64,000 nucleotides of DNA, taken from NCBI GenBank assembly GCA_016177765.1, contig JACOUP010000008.1, positions 439,021 through 503,020 of the forward strand, read 5' to 3'. The number at the start of each line of letters is the position of its first letter. Positions within the stretch are counted from its first letter, which is position 1. Source of the stretch: Deltaproteobacteria bacterium. GTDB taxonomy: Bacteria; UBA10199; JACPAL01; JACOUP01. Under the pieces are notes generated by a model. The model saw only the letters and a list, made by a program, of their open reading frames with translations, searched no databases and was not told the origin of the DNA. Below, piece by piece: positions 1 through 43,850 of the stretch. The position numbers and the translations under genes are program-made.

Positions 1-253
1 ACTCTGGATCTACGGCTCCTGGGCCCGAGGGGACCAAAGAGCAGATTCCGACGTGGATCTTCTGATCGTCCTCCATCCGATTGAAAATCGGGAGCATGAC
101 AGCAATACGGTCTTTGAGCTTGCCTATGAGGCTACCTTTGGAAGGGATCGCCCTGTTCTCTTCTCAACAATAGTGATCAGTCAGAAAGACTTTCTTGAAG
201 GCATGGAACCGCTTCTTTTAAATATTCGTAAAGAGGGAAAGAAGGTGGCATGA
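1..253 (+). CDS. MNT-type nucleotidyltransferase, 3' part only
   Basis: The reading frame is open from base 2, so the gene begins upstream of the window. The visible N-terminal stretch carries the minimal nucleotidyltransferase signature GSWARG followed by DSDVDLL, the Gly-Ser and metal-binding Asp-x-Asp pattern of the pol-beta superfamily. Proteins of this size and motif are usually the MntA antitoxin of HEPN-MNT pairs, which AMPylate their HEPN RNase partner. The stop overlaps the ATG of a following HEPN-like start (ATGA at 250-253), supporting a two-gene unit. The partner is broken, so the pair is probably no longer functional. The motif makes the family call firm; the substrate is inferred. 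Confidence 0.8.
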   Translation, partial: LWIYGSWARGDQRADSDVDLLIVLHPIENREHDSNTVFELAYEATFGRDRPVLFSTIVISQKDFLEGMEPLLLNIRKEGKKVA

Positions 254-341
254 AAAAAGAACTAACCCAATTACTCTCAAAAAGGTAGAGGAGTTTGTTA
301 TTGAGGCCGAAAAATTCCTGATTCAAAACACCGCCGCCTGA
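250..341 (+). pseudogene. broken start of a HEPN-like gene
   Basis: An ATG overlapping the MNT stop opens a frame of 12 codons (MKKELTQLLSKR) that stops at 286-288. A neighbouring frame continues from about 285 as VEEFVIEAEKFLIQNTAA and ends at 339-341. Joined by a frameshift in the A-run near 279-284, the two parts resemble the first helix of a HEPN protein. Nothing of the remaining roughly 100 residues or the RxxxxH catalytic motif is present, and the convergent nuoN stop lies at 323. I read this as a remnant of the toxin partner. Identification rests mainly on position after the MNT gene. Confidence 0.45.
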
Positions 342-1822
342 AACGACTGTCTTGCCAAGGCAAAGAGTTCCTCAGGGAAAAGGCCAAGGTAGGCGACCGC
401 CACACCGGTGAGCCCAAGGGCAATCAGGAGAGGGGTGGAGATTGGGGCAACCGATTCTCCTTGGGTGAAGCACCCCTGCTCCTTCCTAAAGTAGATCACC
501 GAAACAACCCCCAAATAGTAAAAAGCGGAGACCACACTGTTGAGGACCGCCATCACCACAAGGCCAATCAGTCCTGATTCCACAGCGGCCCGGAGGAGAT
601 AAAACTTGCCGATAAAACCGATCGTCGGCGGGATGCCGGTTAAGGCGATCATAAAGAGCGCCATGACCGCGGCCAAGAGTGGGTGCGATTCGGAAAGACC
701 AGCATAATCCCCGATCTCCTCAACTGTTTCACTCTGAACATCCCCTTTTTTTCGTCCGACTGCCACAACCACAGCAAAGGCACCGATCGTCATCAACGAA
801 TAGGCCACCATATAAAAGAAGACAGAGGCCAACGCCTCTTCCCGGATCAGGCCGTTGTTGAGACAGGCTGCGAGCCCTACAAGGGCGTAACCGGCATGGG
901 CGATCGAGGAATAGGCCAACATCCTTTTGATGTTGCTCTGTTTCAAGGCGACCAGATTCCCCACCGTCATCGTCAAGATGGCGAGCGCTGAAATAACCGT
1001 GGTCCATGGGATCTGCGGGTAGGGGGCAAAGGCGATCGCCAAACGGACCAGTCCGATAAACCCGGCCGCCTTAACCCCGGAGGCCATCAGGGCGGTGATC
1101 GGGGTCGGCGCCCCTTCATAGACATCTGGCGTCCAGAAGTGGAAAGGAACCGCGGCCACCTTGAAACCGAGCCCGATCAGGAGGAGGGCGATCCCGAGCC
1201 GGATCAACCACGGGTCGGGGGAAGTCCCTTGGCTCGGGTTGACCCCCTCAGCAATCATCCTGAAATCGGTCGTCCCGGTCGCTCCGTAGATAAGGGCGAT
1301 CCCATACAGTAAAAAACCGGAGGCGAAAGCCCCCAAAATGAAATATTTCATCGACGACTCAGAGGACTTAAGAGTTCGGCTATAACCGGCAAGGATATAG
1401 GCGGCGATACTCATGATCTCGAGGGCGATAAATAGAAGAAGCAGGTCACCGCTATGGGCCATCAAGATCATCCCCGCTGTCGCAAAGAGGATCAGCACGT
1501 AGTACTCTCCCCCCTGACGACTCCCCTCTTCCGTCTCTCTGGAAAGGAGGAGGGCCAAAAAGGTAGCGATCAGGAAGACAAGATCAAAGGCGTAGGCGAT
1601 CTTGTCCGAGAGGACCATGCCGCTTTCCAGCGGAAAACCGCTCAACCAGGCCTGCCAGGCAAGAACAAAAGTCCCAACAATCGCAACCAGGGTAGGGGCA
1701 AAAAAGAGGACCCCCTTTTGCCGGGGTAAAAAGGCCGCAAAGAGGAGTAACACAAGACCGGCCCCCGAAAGGGCCAGGAAGGGAACCAACGCCTTGGCAA
1801 TAATAAGGAGCCAGAGACTCAT
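323..1822 (-). CDS. nuoN: NADH-quinone oxidoreductase subunit N
   Basis: A 499-residue polytopic membrane protein of the Mrp-antiporter-like family, one of the three proton-pumping arm subunits of complex I. It carries the conserved Lys/Glu-bearing helices, for example VAAVPFHFWTPDVYEGAPTP around residues 240-260 and KRMLAYSSIAHAGY near 300, as in other NuoN. Its ATG overlaps the nuoM stop by 4 bases, so it is the last gene of the nuo operon. Near the C-terminus a GGGTG-AAG-CACCC palindrome (463-475) lies inside the frame and encodes GCFTQG, in a loop between two membrane segments. Confidence 0.97.
   Translation of the reverse strand: MSLWLLIIAKALVPFLALSGAGLVLLLFAAFLPRQKGVLFFAPTLVAIVGTFVLAWQAWLSGFPLESGMVLSDKIAYAFDLVFLIATFLALLLSRETEEGSRQGGEYYVLILFATAGMILMAHSGDLLLLFIALEIMSIAAYILAGYSRTLKSSESSMKYFILGAFASGFLLYGIALIYGATGTTDFRMIAEGVNPSQGTSPDPWLIRLGIALLLIGLGFKVAAVPFHFWTPDVYEGAPTPITALMASGVKAAGFIGLVRLAIAFAPYPQIPWTTVISALAILTMTVGNLVALKQSNIKRMLAYSSIAHAGYALVGLAACLNNGLIREEALASVFFYMVAYSLMTIGAFAVVVAVGRKKGDVQSETVEEIGDYAGLSESHPLLAAVMALFMIALTGIPPTIGFIGKFYLLRAAVESGLIGLVVMAVLNSVVSAFYYLGVVSVIYFRKEQGCFTQGESVAPISTPLLIALGLTGVAVAYLGLFPEELFALARQSFQAAVF
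463..475. repeat. 13-nt palindrome inside nuoN
   Basis: GGGTG-AAG-CACCC, a 5-3-5 inverted repeat belonging to the dispersed palindrome family of this window. It lies in the coding frame of nuoN. Confidence 0.7.
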
Positions 1823-3324
1823 CGCACCATCACCTCCGGAACCCCCTTCTTGGCAAGCCCCCAGACCTTGGCCGCCGGTTCAATTTTGCGGAGATAGACG
1901 GAAGGGGTTAGACCGATTTGAAAAATGAGGAGGAGGATCGGCAACAAGAGCCCCACCTCGCGCCAGGAAAGATCCTGAAGGGCCTTGTTCTCCTGATGTT
2001 GGAGGGCACCAAAGAAAACCCTCTTGATCATCCAGAGGAGATAAACAGCGGAAAGGATGACCCCTAGCGTCGCAAGACTCGCCGCCAGAGGGTGTGTTGG
2101 GAATGTCCCGAGCAGGATCAGAAATTCACCGATAAACCCGTTTGTCCCCGGAAGCCCGATTGAAGAAAGAGAAACAATAATAAAGGCGGTGGTAAACCAG
2201 GGAAGGAGAGAGGCGAGCCCCCCGTAATCTTCAATTTTACGGGTATGCCGCCGTTCGTAAATCATCCCGACCAAAAGAAAGAGGGCCCCGGTGGAAAGCC
2301 CATGGTTGACCATCTGAAGGACCGCGCCGGAAACCGCCTCGGGCGTCCCGGCCACCAGGCCAAGGACAATAAATCCCATGTGCGAAACAGAAGAAAAGGC
2401 AACCAGTTTTTTAATATCAGTCTGGACCATCGCCACGAGCGCCCCGTAGAGAATTCCGATTACGGCCAAGGCAATCAGGAGCGGTGAAAAATAGGAGGCG
2501 GCCGCCGGGAAAAGGGGAAAGGCAAACCGGAGGAGTCCGTAGGTCCCCATCTTGAGCAAGACACCAGCCAGGATCACACTGCCACCGGTCGGCGCCTCCA
2601 CATGCGCATCCGGAAGCCAGGTGTGAAAGGGAAACAGGGGAACCTTGATCGCAAAGGCCAAGGCAAAGGCCCCAAAAAGCCATTTTTGCGATGAAACCGG
2701 AAGAGAAAGATTGAGGTAATCCGTCAGATTAAACGAGTGCCCGGCGGCAAAGTAGAGATACAAAATCGCCGCCAGCATCAAGAGAGACCCAACCATCGTG
2801 TACAGGACAAACTTGATTGCCGCGTAGAGGCGTCTCTCCCCTCCCCAAATCCCGATCAAGAAATACATCGGGACCAGCATCACCTCCCAAAAGATATAAA
2901 AGAGAAAGAGGTCCAGGGCCACAAAGACGCCGATCATCCCTACTTCAAGCAACAGGAAAAAAATGAAATACTCGCGAACTCTGCGCTGGGTATCGGTCCA
3001 GGAAGCGGCCAGGACTATCGGTACAAGGAGTGTGGTGAGCAGGATCAAAAAGAGACTGATCCCGTCAACGCCAAGCCTGTAATAGATCCCCAATGACGGG
3101 ATCCATGGAGACAACTCCTTGAAGGTAAAAACAGAATCAAGCGGATAGAAATCCGGAAAGCGGCTGTAAAGCACGAGGGAAAGGGAAAATGGAATGAGGG
3201 AAGAAAGAAAACCGATCCGCCGGACGAGACCTGTCTTCTCGCTGGGAATAAACAAAAGGAGGAGAATCCCCAAGAGCGGGGAAAAGACAAGAAACGAAAG
3301 CAGATGGGTCATAAAAAAGTTCAT
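1819..3324 (-). CDS. nuoM: NADH-quinone oxidoreductase subunit M
   Basis: A 501-residue antiporter-like membrane subunit of complex I. Visible family landmarks are the Glu-bearing stretch FYIFWEVMLVPMYFLIGIWG near residue 140, the Lys-bearing AIKVPLFPFHTWLPDAHVEA near 230, and KKLVAFSSVSHMGFIVLG near 310. Length matches the family. It overlaps nuoL upstream and nuoN downstream by 4 bases each, indicating translational coupling within one operon. Confidence 0.97.
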   Translation of the reverse strand: MNFFMTHLLSFLVFSPLLGILLLLFIPSEKTGLVRRIGFLSSLIPFSLSLVLYSRFPDFYPLDSVFTFKELSPWIPSLGIYYRLGVDGISLFLILLTTLLVPIVLAASWTDTQRRVREYFIFFLLLEVGMIGVFVALDLFLFYIFWEVMLVPMYFLIGIWGGERRLYAAIKFVLYTMVGSLLMLAAILYLYFAAGHSFNLTDYLNLSLPVSSQKWLFGAFALAFAIKVPLFPFHTWLPDAHVEAPTGGSVILAGVLLKMGTYGLLRFAFPLFPAAASYFSPLLIALAVIGILYGALVAMVQTDIKKLVAFSSVSHMGFIVLGLVAGTPEAVSGAVLQMVNHGLSTGALFLLVGMIYERRHTRKIEDYGGLASLLPWFTTAFIIVSLSSIGLPGTNGFIGEFLILLGTFPTHPLAASLATLGVILSAVYLLWMIKRVFFGALQHQENKALQDLSWREVGLLLPILLLIFQIGLTPSVYLRKIEPAAKVWGLAKKGVPEVMVR

Positions 3325-5258
3325 AATACAAAATAAGCAATCAGTACGATTGCCCCAATCCCGAAGAATAAGGCATAATTCTGCAAACGTCCGGTCTGCA
3401 GGAGCGACAAGATCTGCCCCCCCAGCCGGACACCCTGGCCCGAACCATTGACCATAAGCCCGTCAATCACCTTTTCATCGGTCCCCTTCCAGAGGATTTT
3501 ATCGGAAATGAAAAGGAGCGGTTTCAGGACAAGACGTTCGTAGATTTCGTCGATGTAAAATTTGTTTTCTGAGAACCGGTGTAACCAGAAAAAACGACGA
3601 GCCATTTGTGTCACCCTCCCCAGTTTCTGCGAATAGAGGATAAGGGCCACCAACCCCATATGAAAGGCAAAGAGGAGCGTCACCACCGAAAGAATCAGTT
3701 CCAGCCCGTGAGACCCCTTCCCGGCCCCTTCCACAACGGAGGGGTAGGCAAAGACCGGGACGATCCATTGATAAAAAATATTGTCTCCCTTGAGCGCCTC
3801 CGGAATCCCGATCCACCCCCCGACAAGAGAAAGGAGTCCTAGAAAAACAAGCGGGAGTGTCATGGAGAGAGGGGATTCATGGGGATGAAACTTTTCCCGG
3901 GCTTTGCCCAAAAAGGCGAGGGCCAGGGCGCGGCAGGTGTAGAATGACGTCAGACCGGCGGTGAGAAAACCAACACCCCAGAGGATCTTGTGGCCCTGGG
4001 CAAAGGTCTGCCAGAGGATTTCATCCTTTGAAAAAAAACCGGCGAAGGGAAAAATTCCGGCCAGCGCCAGTGACGCCATACCAAAGGTGGCAAAGGTGAC
4101 CGGCATCTTCCCCTTCAACCCCCCCATTTTGAAGAGGTCCTGTTCCCCCGAAAGGGCATGAATGATACTCCCCGCCCCCAAAAAGAGACAGGCCTTGAAA
4201 AAAGCGTGGGTCATCAGATGAAAAATCCCGGCGGCAAACGCCCCGACACCAACCCCCATCACCATAATTCCCAGTTGCGAAACCGTCGAGTAGGCCAAGA
4301 CTTTTTTAATATCCCTTTGTGTCAAGGCAATCAGCGCGGCAAAGAGGGCTGTGGCGGCACCGACGGAGGCAACAACATTCATCGCCACCGGGGAAAGGAG
4401 GTAGAGGAATGAAAGCCGGCTGATCAGATAGATCCCGGCGGTCACCATCGTTGCGGCATGGATCAGGGCGGAAACCGGTGTCGGACCGGCCATCGCATCC
4501 GGCAACCAGACGTACAAAGGAATCTGGGCCGATTTTCCGCAGACACCCGCAAAGAAGGCGAGACAAGCGATCGTCGCCACAGGGGCCAACAGATCGGTCC
4601 TTGAGGCTAAAACCGGGAAACTGAGACTCCCGGCCGCCTTGAAGAGGAGAAACATCCCGATTAAAAAACCGGCATCCCCGATCCGGTTGACCACAAAGGC
4701 CTTGAGCCCGGCAGTCGCCTTTTCGGCATCGGTAAACCAAAAACCGATCAGGAGGTAGGAACACAAACCGACCCCCTCCCACCCGATGAAGACTACCGGC
4801 AGACTCTCTCCCAGCACCAGGAGGAGCATCGCAAAGAGAAAAAGGTTGAGGTAGCAAAAGTACCGGCTGAACCCGGGGTCCTCGGTCATGTAACCAACTG
4901 AATAAAGATGGATCAGGGAACCAACCCCGGTCACGACGAGGATCATCACCAGGGAGAGACGATCAATGAAAAAGGAGAACTCTATCTTTAACCGGCCAAC
5001 CTCCATCCAGGGGAAGAGAGGCCCGACCTTTTCGCCGATCGCCATCTCTTTGAAGAGGAAGAAGACAACGAGGGCGAGGCCGAAGGCGAGCAGGGGAAAA
5101 CCAACCCCGAACAGGGAAACGAGTGATCGCGGAACCCCCCTTTTGCGGCGAACGGCAAAGAGCGACAGGAGCCCGTTGATGATCGCTCCCAGCAACGGAA
5201 GACCGGGGATCCAACAGACAATTTGCGAAAGCGGGATACCTAAAATAAGTGATTCCAT
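3321..5258 (-). CDS. nuoL: NADH-quinone oxidoreductase subunit L
   Basis: A 645-residue subunit at the distal end of the complex I membrane arm, with the long C-terminal lateral helix expected of NuoL. Conserved blocks include FIGWEGVGLCSYLLIGFW near residue 160, QIPLYVWLPDAMAGPTPVSA near 245 and DIKKVLAYSTVSQLGIMV near 315. The gene follows nuoK after an 18-bp gap that holds part of a palindrome, and its stop overlaps the nuoM start. Confidence 0.97.
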   Translation of the reverse strand: MESLILGIPLSQIVCWIPGLPLLGAIINGLLSLFAVRRKRGVPRSLVSLFGVGFPLLAFGLALVVFFLFKEMAIGEKVGPLFPWMEVGRLKIEFSFFIDRLSLVMILVVTGVGSLIHLYSVGYMTEDPGFSRYFCYLNLFLFAMLLLVLGESLPVVFIGWEGVGLCSYLLIGFWFTDAEKATAGLKAFVVNRIGDAGFLIGMFLLFKAAGSLSFPVLASRTDLLAPVATIACLAFFAGVCGKSAQIPLYVWLPDAMAGPTPVSALIHAATMVTAGIYLISRLSFLYLLSPVAMNVVASVGAATALFAALIALTQRDIKKVLAYSTVSQLGIMVMGVGVGAFAAGIFHLMTHAFFKACLFLGAGSIIHALSGEQDLFKMGGLKGKMPVTFATFGMASLALAGIFPFAGFFSKDEILWQTFAQGHKILWGVGFLTAGLTSFYTCRALALAFLGKAREKFHPHESPLSMTLPLVFLGLLSLVGGWIGIPEALKGDNIFYQWIVPVFAYPSVVEGAGKGSHGLELILSVVTLLFAFHMGLVALILYSQKLGRVTQMARRFFWLHRFSENKFYIDEIYERLVLKPLLFISDKILWKGTDEKVIDGLMVNGSGQGVRLGGQILSLLQTGRLQNYALFFGIGAIVLIAYFVL

Positions 5259-5268
5259 AATTACCCGT

Positions 5269-5283
5269 GGGGTGAATCACCCC
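5269..5283. repeat. palindrome over the nuoK stop
   Basis: A 15-nt perfect-stem palindrome whose core, GGGTG-AAT-CACCC, spans 5270-5282. It contains the nuoK stop codon (TGA, read on the minus strand at 5277-5279) and sits in the nuoK-nuoL junction. Member of the dispersed GGGTG-N3-CACCC family. Confidence 0.75.
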
Positions 5284-5573
5284 TTCATGAACGAGATCTC
5301 ATTCAGATCCACCGTCTCACGATCCTTGAAAACCTTGACCAGAATGGCGAGTCCCACCGCCACCTCCGCCGCCGCCACGACCATCACGAAAAAGGCCGCC
5401 ACCTGTCCGTGGAGGTTCCCCTGAAAACGGGCGAAGGTCAGAAAGACAAGATTGGCGGCGTTCAACATCAGCTCCACCGACATAAAAATCACCAGGGCGT
5501 TGCGACGGCAGAGGACACCGACAACACCGACAGAAAAGAGCAAGGCACTCAAAATAAGGTAATGGGTCATCAT
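5277..5573 (-). CDS. nuoK: NADH-quinone oxidoreductase subunit K
   Basis: A 98-residue protein with three predicted membrane helices. The acidic residues of helices 2 and 3 ([17 protein letters not shown], then [13 protein letters not shown]) are those used in the central proton-transfer axis of complex I. It overlaps the nuoJ stop by 4 bases. The stop codon lies within a dispersed palindrome. Confidence 0.96.
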
Positions 5574-6064
5574 TGGGAAAACCTCTCCTTTCCCAACACC
5601 ACCACGCCAACAATGGCAATCAGCAAGAGAAACGACGCCGCCTCAAAAGGGACGAGATAGATGGAAAAAAGGATTTCCCCCAACGGACGGAGGTAACCAA
5701 AAGAAGGAGGTAGTGTTACCTGTGGGTCCGCCAGACCGACCATCCTCAAGACCATGACCACGGCCAGATACGCCCCCACCAGGATCCCGATGAGCGCCAT
5801 AAAGGGGAGGCGGCCGACAACCATTCTCCGCCCGGGATTCAATAGCATAATCACAAAGACAAAAAGGACCATGATCGCCCCGGCATACAGGAGGATTTGC
5901 ATCGCCGCCACAAAATGGGCCTGGAGGAGAACATAAAGACCGGCGAGGCCAAAGAGGCTCACGACCAGGCTGATGGCGGAAGAAAGGGTATTGGGAAGGG
6001 CGATCACCCCAATCGCCCCCCCTAAAGTCACCAGCGCAAAGAGATAGAAGAAAAATGTCTCCAT
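5570..6064 (-). CDS. nuoJ: NADH-quinone oxidoreductase subunit J
   Basis: A 164-residue membrane subunit starting [18 protein letters not shown] chose the ATG at 6064 because it overlaps the nuoH stop by one base (TGATG) and because the 39 residues that could extend it upstream are only nuoH read in another frame. The conserved [23 protein letters not shown] segment marks the family. The gene comes directly after nuoH, where nuoI is normally found between them. Confidence 0.95.
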
Positions 6065-7131
6065 CAATACCACGCAATCATGAACCCGCCGGTCGCCAGG
6101 ATGTTGAGAAGCGCCAGCGGGAGCATGACCCTCCATCCAAAACTCATCAGTTGATCGTACCGGAAACGGGGAAGAGTCCACCGGACCCAGACAAAGAGGA
6201 AACAGAAAAAGAGAATTTTGGCAAGAAAAGTGGTCATCTGAAGAACAGCGGCAAAGAAAGACGGATGGAGGAAGACAGGGGCCATCGATCGAAGATTTTC
6301 GGTTGAAAGAAACGGCACCTGCCAGCCCCCCAGAAAAAGCGATGCCGCCACGGCGGAGGCGATCACCATCGCGGCATATTCCCCCATGAAAAACATCGCA
6401 AACTTCATACTGGAATACTCCACATGATAGCCGGCAACGATCTCCGACTCTCCCTCGGGCAGGTCAAAAGGGGTTCTGTTGGTCTCTGCATAAGAGGCGG
6501 CCAGAAAAACAAAAAAGGCGAGCGGTTGCCTGAAAAAGTTCCAATGCCAGGGCAGGGGGCCCTGATCCCGGACAATCTCGTTTAAGCCGACTGAACCGGA
6601 GATCATGAACAGGGCCACAACGGAAAGCCCCATCGCAATCTCATAACTGATCATCTGCGAGGAGGCCCGGAGACCCCCCAAAAACGAATATTTGTTGTTG
6701 GAGGACCAGCCAGCCAGCATAATACTGTAGACGGCCAGAGAACTGATGGCGAGGATGTAGAGGAGGCCCACATCCAGGTCAGCCAGCTGCATGGAGATAA
6801 CTTGTCCTTCCTCCCAATAAACGGAATCGGCAAAGGGAATCACCGCCACCGCCACAAAAGAGACAAACATCAGGATCGCCGGGGCCAAAACAAAGTAAAA
6901 TTTGTTCGCCCCCGCCGGAATAATATCTTCCTTGGTCAACAGTTTAATGACATCGGCAATATTATGGATCATTCCCCACAACCGGACCCCAAAGATAGAG
7001 GCCCTGTTCGGACCACGGCGATCCTGGATGTAAGCGGAGACCTTCCGCTCCATCCAGATCAGGAGAGGGATCAGGCTGATCACCAGCATCGGAAAAATAA
7101 TAATTTTTAACAGTGAAAATAGAATTTCCAT
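6064..7131 (-). CDS. nuoH: NADH-quinone oxidoreductase subunit H
   Basis: A 355-residue membrane subunit forming part of the quinone-binding chamber. Diagnostic stretches are ERKVSAYIQDRRGPNRA near residue 28, the acidic loop EGESEIVAGYHVEYSSMKFA near 225 and WVRWTLPRFRYDQLM near 325. It starts immediately before the nuoG stop. Its own stop overlaps the start of nuoJ, leaving no room for a nuoI gene. Confidence 0.97.
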   Translation of the reverse strand: MEILFSLLKIIIFPMLVISLIPLLIWMERKVSAYIQDRRGPNRASIFGVRLWGMIHNIADVIKLLTKEDIIPAGANKFYFVLAPAILMFVSFVAVAVIPFADSVYWEEGQVISMQLADLDVGLLYILAISSLAVYSIMLAGWSSNNKYSFLGGLRASSQMISYEIAMGLSVVALFMISGSVGLNEIVRDQGPLPWHWNFFRQPLAFFVFLAASYAETNRTPFDLPEGESEIVAGYHVEYSSMKFAMFFMGEYAAMVIASAVAASLFLGGWQVPFLSTENLRSMAPVFLHPSFFAAVLQMTTFLAKILFFCFLFVWVRWTLPRFRYDQLMSFGWRVMLPLALLNILATGGFMIAWY

Positions 7132-39858: not shown

Positions 39859-41478
39859 ATGACAACCTTGGGCAACTATCTCACCCAGTCCCTCAAAGAA
39901 CTCGGTGTCTCTACCCTTTTTGGGATCCCCGGTGACTACATTCTAGACCTCTGTCACGAACTGGAGACGACCAATGGGTTTCGATTCATCCCCCTCTCCA
40001 CGGAGCCAGGTGTTGGATTTGCAGCCCAAGCTTTCGCGCGAGCCACCGGAAAACTGGGGGTTGTCTGCGTTACTTATGGGGTAGGTGGTCTAAGCGTCCT
40101 CAATCCGGTCGCCTGTGCCTATGCAGAAATGGCCCCTCTCCTTGTTTTGAGCGGTGGACCGAGTCGGGAAGAAAAAGAAAGGGCAAGCATCCTGGTCCAT
40201 CACCAGGTCAAATCCCCCTCAAGCCAGTTAAAAATTTTTGAAGAGGTCACCCAATACGCCGCCGTTCTGGACGATCCTGCCACAGCGGCGCAAAAAATTG
40301 ACCACGCCCTTGAATGCACTCTCCAGTACATGAAACCGGTCTATCTGGAGATCCCCCGAGGGGCCATCCATCAAGAGATTCGGGTCCCAACAGAAAAAAA
40401 GAGGCCTCTCCTGACGGTTAATGAGGAGGCGGTGACAGAAGCGGCTCACGAAATTGGCGACCGGCTCAGCCGGGCCAAAAAACCGGTTTTGGTCGTCGGC
40501 ATTGAGGTCCATCGCAAAAAATTGGCCGGTAAAGTGGTCCGGTTTGCAGAGCAGTGGGGCATCCCGGTGGTTTCCACATTCCTCGCCCGCGGGACTTACC
40601 CGTACGACCATCCCCAATACCTTGGCACCTACCTCGGCGCCGCCTGCCCTCCTTTGGTGCGTGAAACCGTCGAGAAATCGGATTGTCTTTTCATGCTGGG
40701 GGTTATCCTCACAGATACAAACATGGCGGTGCGCCTGAAAGATGTCGATCCAAAGAATGTGATGCTCTGCCTCGGCCGAGAGGTTAAAATACAGCACCAC
40801 AAGTACGAAAATGCCCCTCTCGAAAAAGTTCTGGATCGAATTCTAGAAGGCCCTGTCCAACAGAAGGCCCGGCATTTTGAAAAAATACCCCCCCCTGACA
40901 TTGCCCCCCCTCCCACAGGGAATGGGCCGATTACCGTTGGGCAGGTGATTGATCACCTTAATTATTTTCTTAAGACCCAGGAACAGATGATTGTTGTGGC
41001 CGACACAGGAGACTCTCTTTTTATCTCTTACGAATTAAACGCTAAAAGGGTGATGGCCCCCGCCTATTATACCACGATGGGGTTCGCCGTCCCTTCTGGA
41101 ATAGGAATTCAGATTGGAACCGGCGAGAGGCCCTTGATCCTTGTTGGTGATGGGGCCTTCCAGATGACAGGGACGGAGTTGGCCCAATGCCCCCGCTACG
41201 AGATCAACCCGATCGTCATCCTTCTCAATAACAACCGATGGGGGATGCTGGAGCCGTTTCTCCCAGAAGGAGGGTACAACAAGATCCCCAACTGGCCGTA
41301 TGCTGAGATGGCCCGCGGCTGGGGAGGAAACGGTTTTTCCGTCAAGACACCCAAGGAATTCCAGGAAGCCCTGCAAACCGCCCATCGCTCTGACCGGTTT
41401 TCCCTCATTGAAGTCGCAATCCAGCCTGGGGATTACACGAAGACGTTGCAAATCTTTGCAAAGGGGATCAAGAGCTAA
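39859..41478 (+). CDS. thiamine-diphosphate 2-oxoacid decarboxylase, IpdC-like
   Basis: A 539-residue ThDP enzyme of the pyruvate/indolepyruvate/phenylpyruvate decarboxylase group. It has three domains: an N-terminal PYR domain (GIPGDYILDLCHELE; catalytic Glu in PLSTEPGVGFAAQAFAR), a central domain, and a C-terminal PP domain with GDGAFQMTGTELAQ...NN, the ThDP-Mg motif. It would decarboxylate an aromatic or branched 2-oxoacid to an aldehyde; the aldehyde dehydrogenase at 18201 is too distant to link. The gene stands alone, 33 bp after the Rrf2 gene. Confidence 0.88.
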   Translation: MTTLGNYLTQSLKELGVSTLFGIPGDYILDLCHELETTNGFRFIPLSTEPGVGFAAQAFARATGKLGVVCVTYGVGGLSVLNPVACAYAEMAPLLVLSGGPSREEKERASILVHHQVKSPSSQLKIFEEVTQYAAVLDDPATAAQKIDHALECTLQYMKPVYLEIPRGAIHQEIRVPTEKKRPLLTVNEEAVTEAAHEIGDRLSRAKKPVLVVGIEVHRKKLAGKVVRFAEQWGIPVVSTFLARGTYPYDHPQYLGTYLGAACPPLVRETVEKSDCLFMLGVILTDTNMAVRLKDVDPKNVMLCLGREVKIQHHKYENAPLEKVLDRILEGPVQQKARHFEKIPPPDIAPPPTGNGPITVGQVIDHLNYFLKTQEQMIVVADTGDSLFISYELNAKRVMAPAYYTTMGFAVPSGIGIQIGTGERPLILVGDGAFQMTGTELAQCPRYEINPIVILLNNNRWGMLEPFLPEGGYNKIPNWPYAEMARGWGGNGFSVKTPKEFQEALQTAHRSDRFSLIEVAIQPGDYTKTLQIFAKGIKS

Positions 41479-41483
41479 CACCG

Positions 41484-41524
41484 GTGCCTGGCACCACGAG
41501 GGTCATTTGTACCAGGCACGCGTG
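41484..41524. repeat. REP copy 1
   Basis: A 41-bp element beginning GTGCCTGGCAC and ending CCAGGCACGCGTG. GTGCCTGG and CCAGGCAC form the outer stem, and an inner GGTGCC-T-GGCACC palindrome lies at 41483-41495. It is identical to the copy at 43066-43106. Confidence 0.9.
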
Positions 41525-41557
41525 TAACATATTGAAAAATAGTAGAAAAATTTACTG

Positions 41558-42244
41558 TTAAAAGTGGGTCTCTCTTTCGGCTATTGTTTTCAAGCGGTGA
41601 AGGAGGGTTTCATTATCCAAGGAAGCGATTTCTACAGGAGTGATTACTTGATCAAAAACGGCTTCAACCGATCCTGGGCGAACACGCCACTCTCCAAATG
41701 GCAATCGTTCTCTCGCCCCTCGCATCACTAATGGAACAAGGGTCGCCCCTGCCTCTCTCGCCAGAATCAAGGCACCCTTTTTGTACCTTTGTAACTGACC
41801 ATCCCGGCTTCTCTGCCCTTCAATGGAAATTCCAAAATTCATCCCTCGACGCATACGACGGGCAGTTTTCTTCAATCCTCTCAAAGCCTGCCAACGCCAT
41901 TGACGAAAGATCGCCACCCCTCCTAAAAGCCAAAGAAGCCAACCCACAAAAGGTAAAAGGACATATCCGATATTCATAAACATCCGGAAAGGAACCGGCA
42001 TCGCTACAACGTAGGGCAACACCTCAATGAGACTCGCCTGATTTAAATGGACAAAAAGATATGGCGGATTGTTGTAGACCCCCTGATTCCGGTCTTCCAC
42101 GTGAACCTGTATTTTAAAAATATGGAGTTGAAGCGAAACCCATCTCTTCATCAATCCCATCGCCGCTGGATAAGAAAATGGGGCGAGAAAAAGAGCCGGT
42201 CCCAAATAAAAGGGAGCGCTAACTACTGAGATAAACCACCTCAT
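41558..42244 (-). CDS. PlsC-like acyltransferase with altered catalytic motif
   Basis: A 228-residue membrane-associated protein of the lysophospholipid acyltransferase fold. SIEGQRSRDGQLQRYKKGAL and AGATLVPLVMRG match motifs III and IV. The usual NHxSxxD motif I reads NQASLIE, so the catalytic His and Asp appear as Gln and Glu in my hand alignment. I start it at the ATG 42244 because the longer frame runs through a REP half-copy. The gene lies between REP copies beside a RAYT gene, so it may have moved or been captured with them. Confidence 0.75.
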   Translation of the reverse strand: MRWFISVVSAPFYLGPALFLAPFSYPAAMGLMKRWVSLQLHIFKIQVHVEDRNQGVYNNPPYLFVHLNQASLIEVLPYVVAMPVPFRMFMNIGYVLLPFVGWLLWLLGGVAIFRQWRWQALRGLKKTARRMRRGMNFGISIEGQRSRDGQLQRYKKGALILAREAGATLVPLVMRGARERLPFGEWRVRPGSVEAVFDQVITPVEIASLDNETLLHRLKTIAERETHF

Positions 42245-42262
42245 AAGACTTGGCAAAATACC

Positions 42263-42276
42263 CGGTGCCTGGCACG
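42263..42276. repeat. REP half-copy
   Basis: GGTGCC-T-GGCAC-GC, the inner palindrome of the REP element, followed by AACATATTGA, which is also found just after REP copy 1. It lies between the acyltransferase and the RAYT gene. Confidence 0.75.
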
Positions 42277-42375
42277 CTTTAAACATATTGATCAGCAAAG
42301 GTATTAACAGTCCTAAAATCGAACTGTCAGTACGAAAATCGAACTACTTCTTCAGACTTCCGTGCTCAAAAAACT

Positions 42376-42390
42376 TGGCATGTAGTTTGC
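42376..42390 (+). promoter_or_regulatory. sigma-54-like promoter before the RAYT gene
   Basis: TGGCAT-GTAGT-TTGC followed by TT keeps the invariant GG and GC spaced 10 bp apart. Predicted transcription start is about 42402, leaving almost no leader before the ATG at 42404. A second TGGCAT overlaps the start codon. Confidence 0.55.
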
Positions 42391-42403
42391 TTATACCTTT
42401 GGC

Positions 42404-43039
42404 ATGGGAAGACTACCACGAATTCAGGAAAACCAACTTCATTATCACATTATTGTCCGCTGTAATAATGAGGCGTTTCATTTTGAAACCAAGGAAGATT
42501 TTGAAAGGTATTTAAACACCCTCTCCTTTTTTAAAAAGAGGCATCGCTTTAAACTCTATAATTATGTCCTCATGAATTCCCACGTTCATCTGCTACTCCA
42601 GCCTTCTGAGAAGACTCCTCTCCAAGAGACAATGCACCTCATTAATTGGAACTATGCCAAGGACTACAATCAGCGCAAGAATAGGAAAGGTCATTTCTGG
42701 CTGGACCGCTATACAAGCATCCCTGTGCAAACAGACTTATACGCCTTGAGCCTTATGCGATACATGGATCGAAACCCTATTCGTGCGGGAATCATCAAGA
42801 AACCGGATAATTGGCAATGGGGTGGTTATCGATTTTATGCCTTTGGAGAACCCAATTCCATACTCGATTCACATGTCAGTTACTTAGCTTTGGGAAGTAA
42901 AGACAAAATAAGGCAAGAAAACTATAAAAATTTTGTGACCATGATCCTTCCCGGCGAAGATCAAAAAAAACATGAATTTAGCAAAGCAGCTTATATCGGC
43001 TCGGAAAGTTTCGCGCGTCGACTAGGACTCTCCAAATAA
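42404..43039 (+). CDS. REP-associated tyrosine transposase (RAYT)
   Basis: A 211-residue Y1 HUH-family protein of the IS200-like superfamily. The HUH motif is NSHVHLLLQP near residue 60, and the catalytic Tyr is expected in WNYAKDYNQ near 85. HFWLDRYTSIPV and MRYMDRNPIRAG are typical of RAYTs. These proteins nick and join REP hairpins. Two identical 41-bp REP copies flank the locus, with one 27 bp downstream of the stop, supporting a cognate pair. The gene looks intact. Confidence 0.92.
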   Translation: MGRLPRIQENQLHYHIIVRCNNEAFHFETKEDFERYLNTLSFFKKRHRFKLYNYVLMNSHVHLLLQPSEKTPLQETMHLINWNYAKDYNQRKNRKGHFWLDRYTSIPVQTDLYALSLMRYMDRNPIRAGIIKKPDNWQWGGYRFYAFGEPNSILDSHVSYLALGSKDKIRQENYKNFVTMILPGEDQKKHEFSKAAYIGSESFARRLGLSK

Positions 43040-43065
43040 ACATTATATTTTAATGCGTTATACGC

Positions 43066-43106
43066 GTGCCTGGCACCACGAGGGTCATTTGTACCAGGCA
43101 CGCGTG
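43066..43106. repeat. REP copy 2
   Basis: Same 41 bases as REP copy 1 (41484-41524) in the same orientation, preceded by GC to give a slightly longer stem. It lies between the RAYT gene and the oxidase operon. Confidence 0.9.
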
Positions 43107-43129: not shown

Positions 43130-43315
43130 TTACTTCATCAACCGATAAACCCACCACCCGAGAACGCCGAGAAGGAGGAGTGGCAAGAGGCTCATCAGGA
43201 TTGTGCTCCCGTAGTAGGCCCAGAGATTCCGGGCATCGGCCCAGTAACAGGAGGGGCAGGCCAACGCGAGGGCAGGAAAGAAAAGAGACAGGATGCTAAA
43301 AATAGAGGAGCGCAT
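43130..43315 (-). CDS. small membrane protein of the oxidase operon
   Basis: A 61-residue protein: a signal or first helix (SILSLFFPALALA), then CPSCYW, then a second helix (LLPLLLLGVLGWWVYRL). The ATG at 43315 lies within the end of the preceding subunit gene, so it is translationally coupled. The CPSC motif at the membrane exterior could bind copper or a redox partner during Cu site assembly. I do not recognise a named family. Confidence 0.7.
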   Translation of the reverse strand: MRSSIFSILSLFFPALALACPSCYWADARNLWAYYGSTILMSLLPLLLLGVLGWWVYRLMK

Positions 43316-43850
43316 AAAGGATCGGCCAGACAAGGACGACGAAAATCCAGAACATCCGGGCGGCAATGACCCCTGCCTGGTTTAGTGCCGAATAACGACG
43401 ATACACCGCCCTGAAAAAGACAACCAGTAAAACAGCTAACGCCGCCATGACATGAGCGGCATGGGCCCCCACAATGATATAAAAGGTCCCTCCGTAAATA
43501 TTCAGGGCGGTGGTCAACCCAAACCGGATCAGCTGAATCCACTCGTACCCCTGGATCCCCAAAAAGAAGAGCCCCCCCAGCGCTGAAAGCCCCAACCACC
43601 AGACCAACCCGGCAAGGTTTCCCCGCTTCAAGGCCGCGCCGGTCTGCCCCATCGCCAGACCGCTGAGCAAGAGGATAACAGTATTGACGGCGGTAACAGT
43701 GATTGGAAGACGAGGCTGTCCCATCGGCGGCCATGAGATAAACTGGGCCCTTAAAACCCAATAGGCACTGATCAAACCGGCAAAGAACATCCCCTCCGCC
43801 GCCAGAAAGAAGGCCATGGCTATTTTTGTCGATCTATCGTCCGTAGACAT
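43296..43850 (-). CDS. heme-copper oxidase subunit III-like protein
   Basis: A 184-residue, five-helix protein of the CoxC/CyoC family (AMAFFLAAEGMFFAGLISAYWVL, FYIIVGAHAAHVMAALAVLL). It is a second subunit III-like gene in this operon, the other being at 44100. It overlaps the subunit IV-like gene by 17 bases. Two paralogous subunits III could form one complex or serve alternative assemblies. Confidence 0.87.
   Translation of the reverse strand: MSTDDRSTKIAMAFFLAAEGMFFAGLISAYWVLRAQFISWPPMGQPRLPITVTAVNTVILLLSGLAMGQTGAALKRGNLAGLVWWLGLSALGGLFFLGIQGYEWIQLIRFGLTTALNIYGGTFYIIVGAHAAHVMAALAVLLVVFFRAVYRRYSALNQAGVIAARMFWIFVVLVWPILYALLYF

Follow-up and report, generated by a model that had tools for sequence, protein, structure and literature searches.

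Genes and repeats of the interval

The genome considered here comprises 1.92 Mb in 19 contigs, and the window, i.e., the whole stretch of 64,000 nucleotides that was analysed, corresponds to C8:439021-503020. Within it, we observe the order TPP-enzyme gene, REPIN (41484), plsC-like ORF, solo repeat arm (42265), Y1/HUH transposase gene, REPIN (43066) and COX3-like gene. The features of the interval and its neighbours are:

39859-41478, plus strand: TPP-enzyme gene, left neighbour of the interval
41484-41519, plus strand: REPIN copy 1, two inverted 11-bp arms with a 14-nt loop, CACGAGGGTCATTT; the right arm is tailed to about 41535
41558-42298, minus strand: PlsC-like acyltransferase ORF (Pfam Acyltransferase match, 5.8e-13)
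42264-42291, plus strand: left end of the RAYT unit, a solo REP arm, GGTGCCTGGCACGCTTTAAACATATTGA
42308-42345, plus strand: two direct GTCCGAAAATCGAAC-like motifs in the leader of the RAYT; the aligned units of relatives have them as well
42404-43039, plus strand: RAYT / Y1-HUH transposase gene, 211 aa, intact (Y1_Tnp match, 4.3e-16)
43050-43077, plus strand: right end of the RAYT unit, an inverted REP arm that doubles as the left arm of REPIN copy 2
43066-43101, plus strand: REPIN copy 2, within the identical 41-bp stretch 43066-43106
43296-43850, minus strand: COX3-like gene, right neighbour of the interval (cox operon side)

The original prediction described two 41-bp REP copies, identical in every base, that enclose a plsC-like gene, a half-copy of the repeat and an intact transposase gene. 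All of these contents are present, and 41484-41524 agrees with 43066-43106 at every position. Compared over 44 nt the two copies show one mismatch, and the sequences, which lie 1.6 kb apart, diverge immediately beyond the 41 bp. The flanking repeats are not single REPs, as had been assumed; each is a REPIN, i.e., an inverted pair of GTGCCWGGCAC arms of 11 bp separated by a 14-nt loop. The half-copy, GTGCCTGGCACGCTTTAAACATATTGA, occupies 42265-42291 and corresponds to the left end listed above. Allowing up to one mismatch, GTGCCTGGCAC occurs eight times in the window, every time at one of the repeat sites of the interval, with a chance expectation of 0.7. In DNA folding, the REPIN strand at 43066 folds well (z = -3.9), better than the copy at 41484 (z = -1.4).

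The transposase has kept the HUH (SHVHL) and Y---NP (RYMDRNP) motifs, both of them features of the RAYT / TnpA_REP class 2 (PMC6006769). The NCBIfam model REP_Tyr_transpos (NF047646) scores 66.5 bits (E = 2.3e-18), which is under its curated cut-off of 80; it is still the best family. As in a REPtron, the gene is flanked by repeats that are dispersed as doublets (16 REPINs plus solo arms), and as in a TIRYT/TIRtron, its terminal inverted repeats belong to a repeated family unrelated to GTAG REPs. The 5' GT[AG]G at the hairpin foot, the mark of a canonical REP, is absent from the arms read. The closest RAYTs of related genomes are found in G005:C11 (63% identity) and, as two copies, in G004 (59-60%), and a plasmid search returned RAYT matches of only 29-34% among the matches listed. 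A second RAYT-like gene of the same genome (G000:C3:20315-20914) has 47% identity to the one in the window. In G022:C11 (L109:396-5803), ten REP arms are spread over 5.4 kb around a truncated RAYT, the 5' part of which is replaced by an arm.

The plsC-like ORF starts with TTG, and its first residues are encoded by the REP arm; the real start is likely the ATG at 42244. The left-end arm lies about 20 bp upstream of this start, as would be expected if the RAYT unit had inserted next to a gene that was already there. Orthologues occur at G004:C5:38578 (45%) and G003:C1:501115 (45%, interrupted), next to a Fic gene and an acyl-CoA dehydrogenase gene, respectively, and neither a RAYT nor a REP core was found near them in 18 kb. 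The protein resembles PlsC (1-acylglycerol-3-phosphate acyltransferase) in its PF01553 fold, its EGxRSxDG motif and its sequence match to 5KYM, but the catalytic NHX4D motif is NQX4E in this subfamily: it reads NQASLIE in the window and NQTSLVE and NQTSLSE in the orthologues, so that the Q/E change is common to all three. The other PlsC homologue encoded in the genome reads NHQGMFD. Given the NQX4E form, catalysis by means of the usual dyad is doubtful.

Both enclosed genes are low in GC within surroundings of 54%, and their GC3 values of 0.46 (plsC) and 0.43 compare with 0.62 +/- 0.05 for the other ORFs of the window. No plsC was found beside the COX3 orthologues of relatives or beside the TPP-enzyme orthologues in G003 and G005. 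The low GC, together with this absence from either flanking gene in the relatives examined, suggests that plsC was acquired. A plasmid search gave no plsC match over more than 38% of its length.

Ends of the RAYT unit and the dispersed REPIN family

Four RAYT units were aligned, namely the one in the window, one from G005 and two from G004. Their homology begins at the left arm, GGTGCCWGGCAC / GGTGCCWGGCACGC, and in comparisons across genomes it ends at the right arm, GGCACCA / GCGTGCCTGGCACCA, with unrelated outer flanks. From arm to arm the units span 826-836 bp in the relatives and 801 bp in the window. The three units of the relatives are solo units of about 0.83 kb with the same inverted arms and no plsC inside. 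The unit is TIRtron/REPtron-like, since it terminates on both sides in REP arms that are inverted relative to each other. The equivalents of these ends in the window are the half-copy and the first arm of the REPIN at 43066, and thus plsC lies outside the unit. That the right end of the RAYT is itself a REPIN arm also bears out the assignment of the repeats to this RAYT.

The two RAYT copies of G004 share 1330 + 125 bp at 91-94%, from the left arm to about 600 bp past the right arm. These 600 bp run through a glyoxalase-like frame, an assignment made by reading the sequence rather than by a family search. A RAYT segment can thus be copied along with flanking DNA. This extra DNA is downstream of the RAYT in G004; plsC is upstream of it in the window. 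Of the two G004 copies (L064:7403-8857 and L069:7520-9123), one adjoins a truncated duplicate of a Cupin_5 gene, the intact copy of which is 3 kb away.

A genome-wide search, as proposed in the original prediction, was carried out with the pattern GTRCCWGGYAC-(8-24)-GTRCCWGGYAC and confirmed that the repeat is dispersed: 16 REPINs were found, besides solo arms. When aligned, the REPINs are symmetric and consist of a tail TCAATNAGTTATACGC, the core GTGCCTGGCAC, a loop of 14 or 15 nt, the core again and the inverted tail. The arm tails of these REPINs match the ends of the RAYT unit. A third instance of the 41 bp lies on another contig (C2:98483-98518), where 3 kb were inspected and none of the ORFs encodes a RAYT. 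Seven loci have the loop CACGAGGGTCATTT or a version of it changed at one base, and other loci of this loop family differ by one or two bases in most comparisons. With an identical copy at an unlinked third locus and a loop family of seven loci, the identity of the flanking repeats is a property of a dispersed subfamily and not of the ends of a single insertion. The perfect identity had been taken as a sign of recent activity; this holds insofar as near-identical copies at unlinked loci suggest a recent spread, but not for the two copies as the ends of one insertion.

Interpretation and alternatives

Implementing these observations, we regard it as likely that two separate things lie side by side here: a self-contained RAYT unit, and an unrelated plsC-like gene next to another REPIN, which is a dispersed one. 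The unit spans about 0.81 kb (42264-43077), consists of a Y1/HUH gene between terminal inverted REP arms and is of the REPtron/TIRtron kind. Its right arm, placed head-to-head with a second arm, forms a REPIN, and the plsC-like gene sits between the unit and the dispersed REPIN at 41484. Most likely, the RAYT works in trans on REPIN arms that have folded into single-stranded hairpins, and it may in this way catalyse the spread of the REPINs. These would have moved through the genome to reach 16 copies, landing mainly at the 3' ends of genes. The two flanking REPINs presumably match as members of one subfamily that spread recently.

The original prediction suggested a composite unit with the acyltransferase as passenger. 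For this, the left-type arm of REPIN copy 1 (41509) and the right arm at 43066 would have acted as ends, and plsC would have moved with the RAYT, which we consider unlikely. The arm orientations permit it, as the REPIN at 41484 supplies a second left-type arm oriented for a longer unit. Both genes are low in GC and GC3, as in a co-acquired island, and relatives are without plsC beside either flank. A RAYT copy of G004 even carries neighbouring DNA, but on the other (right) side. Against this reading, the inner left arm is common to the three solo RAYT units of the two relatives, in which the RAYT is the only gene between the same two ends. In 46 genomes of the class, a pair of plsC and RAYT was seen at no other locus. 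REPs are missing from the surroundings of the plsC orthologues, and an unlinked copy has the same 41 bp. Synteny of plsC with the same neighbours in RAYT-less relatives had been named as evidence against a passenger gene; in none of the relatives examined does plsC adjoin the TPP-enzyme gene or the cox operon, in a comparison with relatives of other genera that differ in their cox and TPP neighbourhoods. Both enclosed genes are compositionally foreign. The passenger status of plsC is neither proven nor refuted. Judging from the sequences compared, the identical flanking repeats probably do not mark a two-gene transposon. A literature search revealed no paper linking RAYTs with passengers, as far as titles and abstracts tell. 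The contig L073 (JACOYB010000010.1, labelled Magasanikbacteria; 1-6969) came up as a candidate empty site. It ends in 1065 bp at 99.8% to window positions 41330-42394, joined to CPR genes, and was judged chimeric, because the shared sequence takes in a portion of the TPP gene and its break point is no repeat but a site 10 bp ahead of the RAYT start.

The two REPINs could also have been made identical by gene conversion or local duplication, without transposition. Copies 1.6 kb apart that are identical over 41 bp and then diverge at once would agree with such an event, but local conversion alone is insufficient for the 41-bp identity on another contig and the subfamily of seven loci, and we hold this to be highly improbable.

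It is quite unlikely that plsC, and separately the RAYT, are cassettes between REP arms of the same orientation, whose capture or exchange would be due to the action of the RAYT or to recombination between REPINs. A wider version, in which the RAYT ends are cassette boundaries and a Y1/HUH transposase captures small accessory operons delimited by same-strand arms or REPINs and lines them up much as an integron does, appears improbable to a similar degree. It would cover plsC here, DUF6036 elsewhere in this genome, and type II/IV toxin-antitoxin operons in G012, G027 and G004. In its favour, another pair of REPINs, spaced by 1.45 kb (C8:325816/327270), encloses an operon with DUF6036 that has 41% GC vs 55% and is located between convergent genes. 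At this locus (L072:3817-5306; G000:C8:325816-327305) the REPINs have the same orientation and extended flank similarity, the operon encodes a DUF6036 nucleotidyltransferase, and there is no RAYT. The chance probability of at least two REPIN pairs under 1.6 kb among 16 is 0.016 if uniform placement is assumed. Of the 46 genomes of the class, 7 have tailed arms. In G012:C30 (L108:5758-10550), six same-orientation arms lie within 4.8 kb and alternate with toxin-antitoxin-like operons; the genes between them are an HTH_37+Gp49 pair, one for DUF6036, and an HTH+HigB-like pair, and further arms of this contig adjoin HicB and PIN genes. Arms also adjoin BrnTA operons in G027 and an AbiE operon (AbiEi gene) in G004, and neighbouring arms of relatives that are 0.1-4 kb apart have the same orientation in 20 cases and opposite orientation in 8, three of the latter being RAYT units.

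Against these points, the pattern was recognised post hoc from counts that are small and not independent, most REPINs of this genome adjoin ordinary genes with no cassette, no cassette was found to recur at a second arm-bounded locus, and G012 and G027 are without a close RAYT. The known preference of REPs for the 3' ends of genes (PMC3733652) could produce the association. As for an integron at G012:C30, no integrase was found among the three larger upstream ORFs scanned. Titles and abstracts retrieved in a literature search contained no apparently relevant paper that links REPs with toxin-antitoxin cassettes. Two further candidates were discarded: the arms of G027:C31 as toxin-antitoxin-associated, since they lie inside one giant ORF, and the direct arm pairs of G007 as cassette boundaries, since they flank ordinary genes. 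Within L120 (G027:C31:7000-20000), three GTGCCTGGCAC cores are located inside a single open frame of more than 4300 codons. The arm array of G012:C30 lies beside Fic and DUF4143 ATPase genes.

Relation to known systems and biological meaning

With the TIRtron/TIRYT (PMC3733652), the separate RAYT unit that we favour shares a RAYT-like gene whose terminal inverted repeats are unrelated to GTAG REPs, and a repeat family that is dispersed in moderate numbers, often in the form of dimers. Unlike in the TIRtron, the core of the inverted repeat is itself an 11-bp palindrome (GTGCCWGGCAC), and this core is common to several genomes of one class, whereas loops and tails are genome-specific. A literature search for the 11-mer core returned only unrelated human or mouse papers. 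The REPtron with its REPINs (PMC6006769, PMC3116915) is similar in that a Y1/HUH gene of the Y---NP type is present in single copy and has its dispersed repeat on either side, with inverted doublets scattered mainly between genes. It differs in that the guide tetranucleotide GT[AG]G is missing from the hairpin foot here, W is present and Q95 is replaced, only 16 REPINs occur, the unit ends are clean and inverted, and G004 has two copies of the unit. IS200/IS605 elements likewise have a Y1 transposase with HUH, but the IS200 family model stays far under its cut-off, and the ends found here are inverted repeats.

From a biological point of view, the analysis establishes exactly where a RAYT unit starts and stops in a class that has received little study. 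In related genomes, core, tail and loop of the repeat family vary together with the RAYT clade. It also corrects the inference that identical flanking REPINs indicate a composite insertion. Should the cassette reading prove true, RAYTs would represent a second, integrase-free route to gene-cassette arrays.
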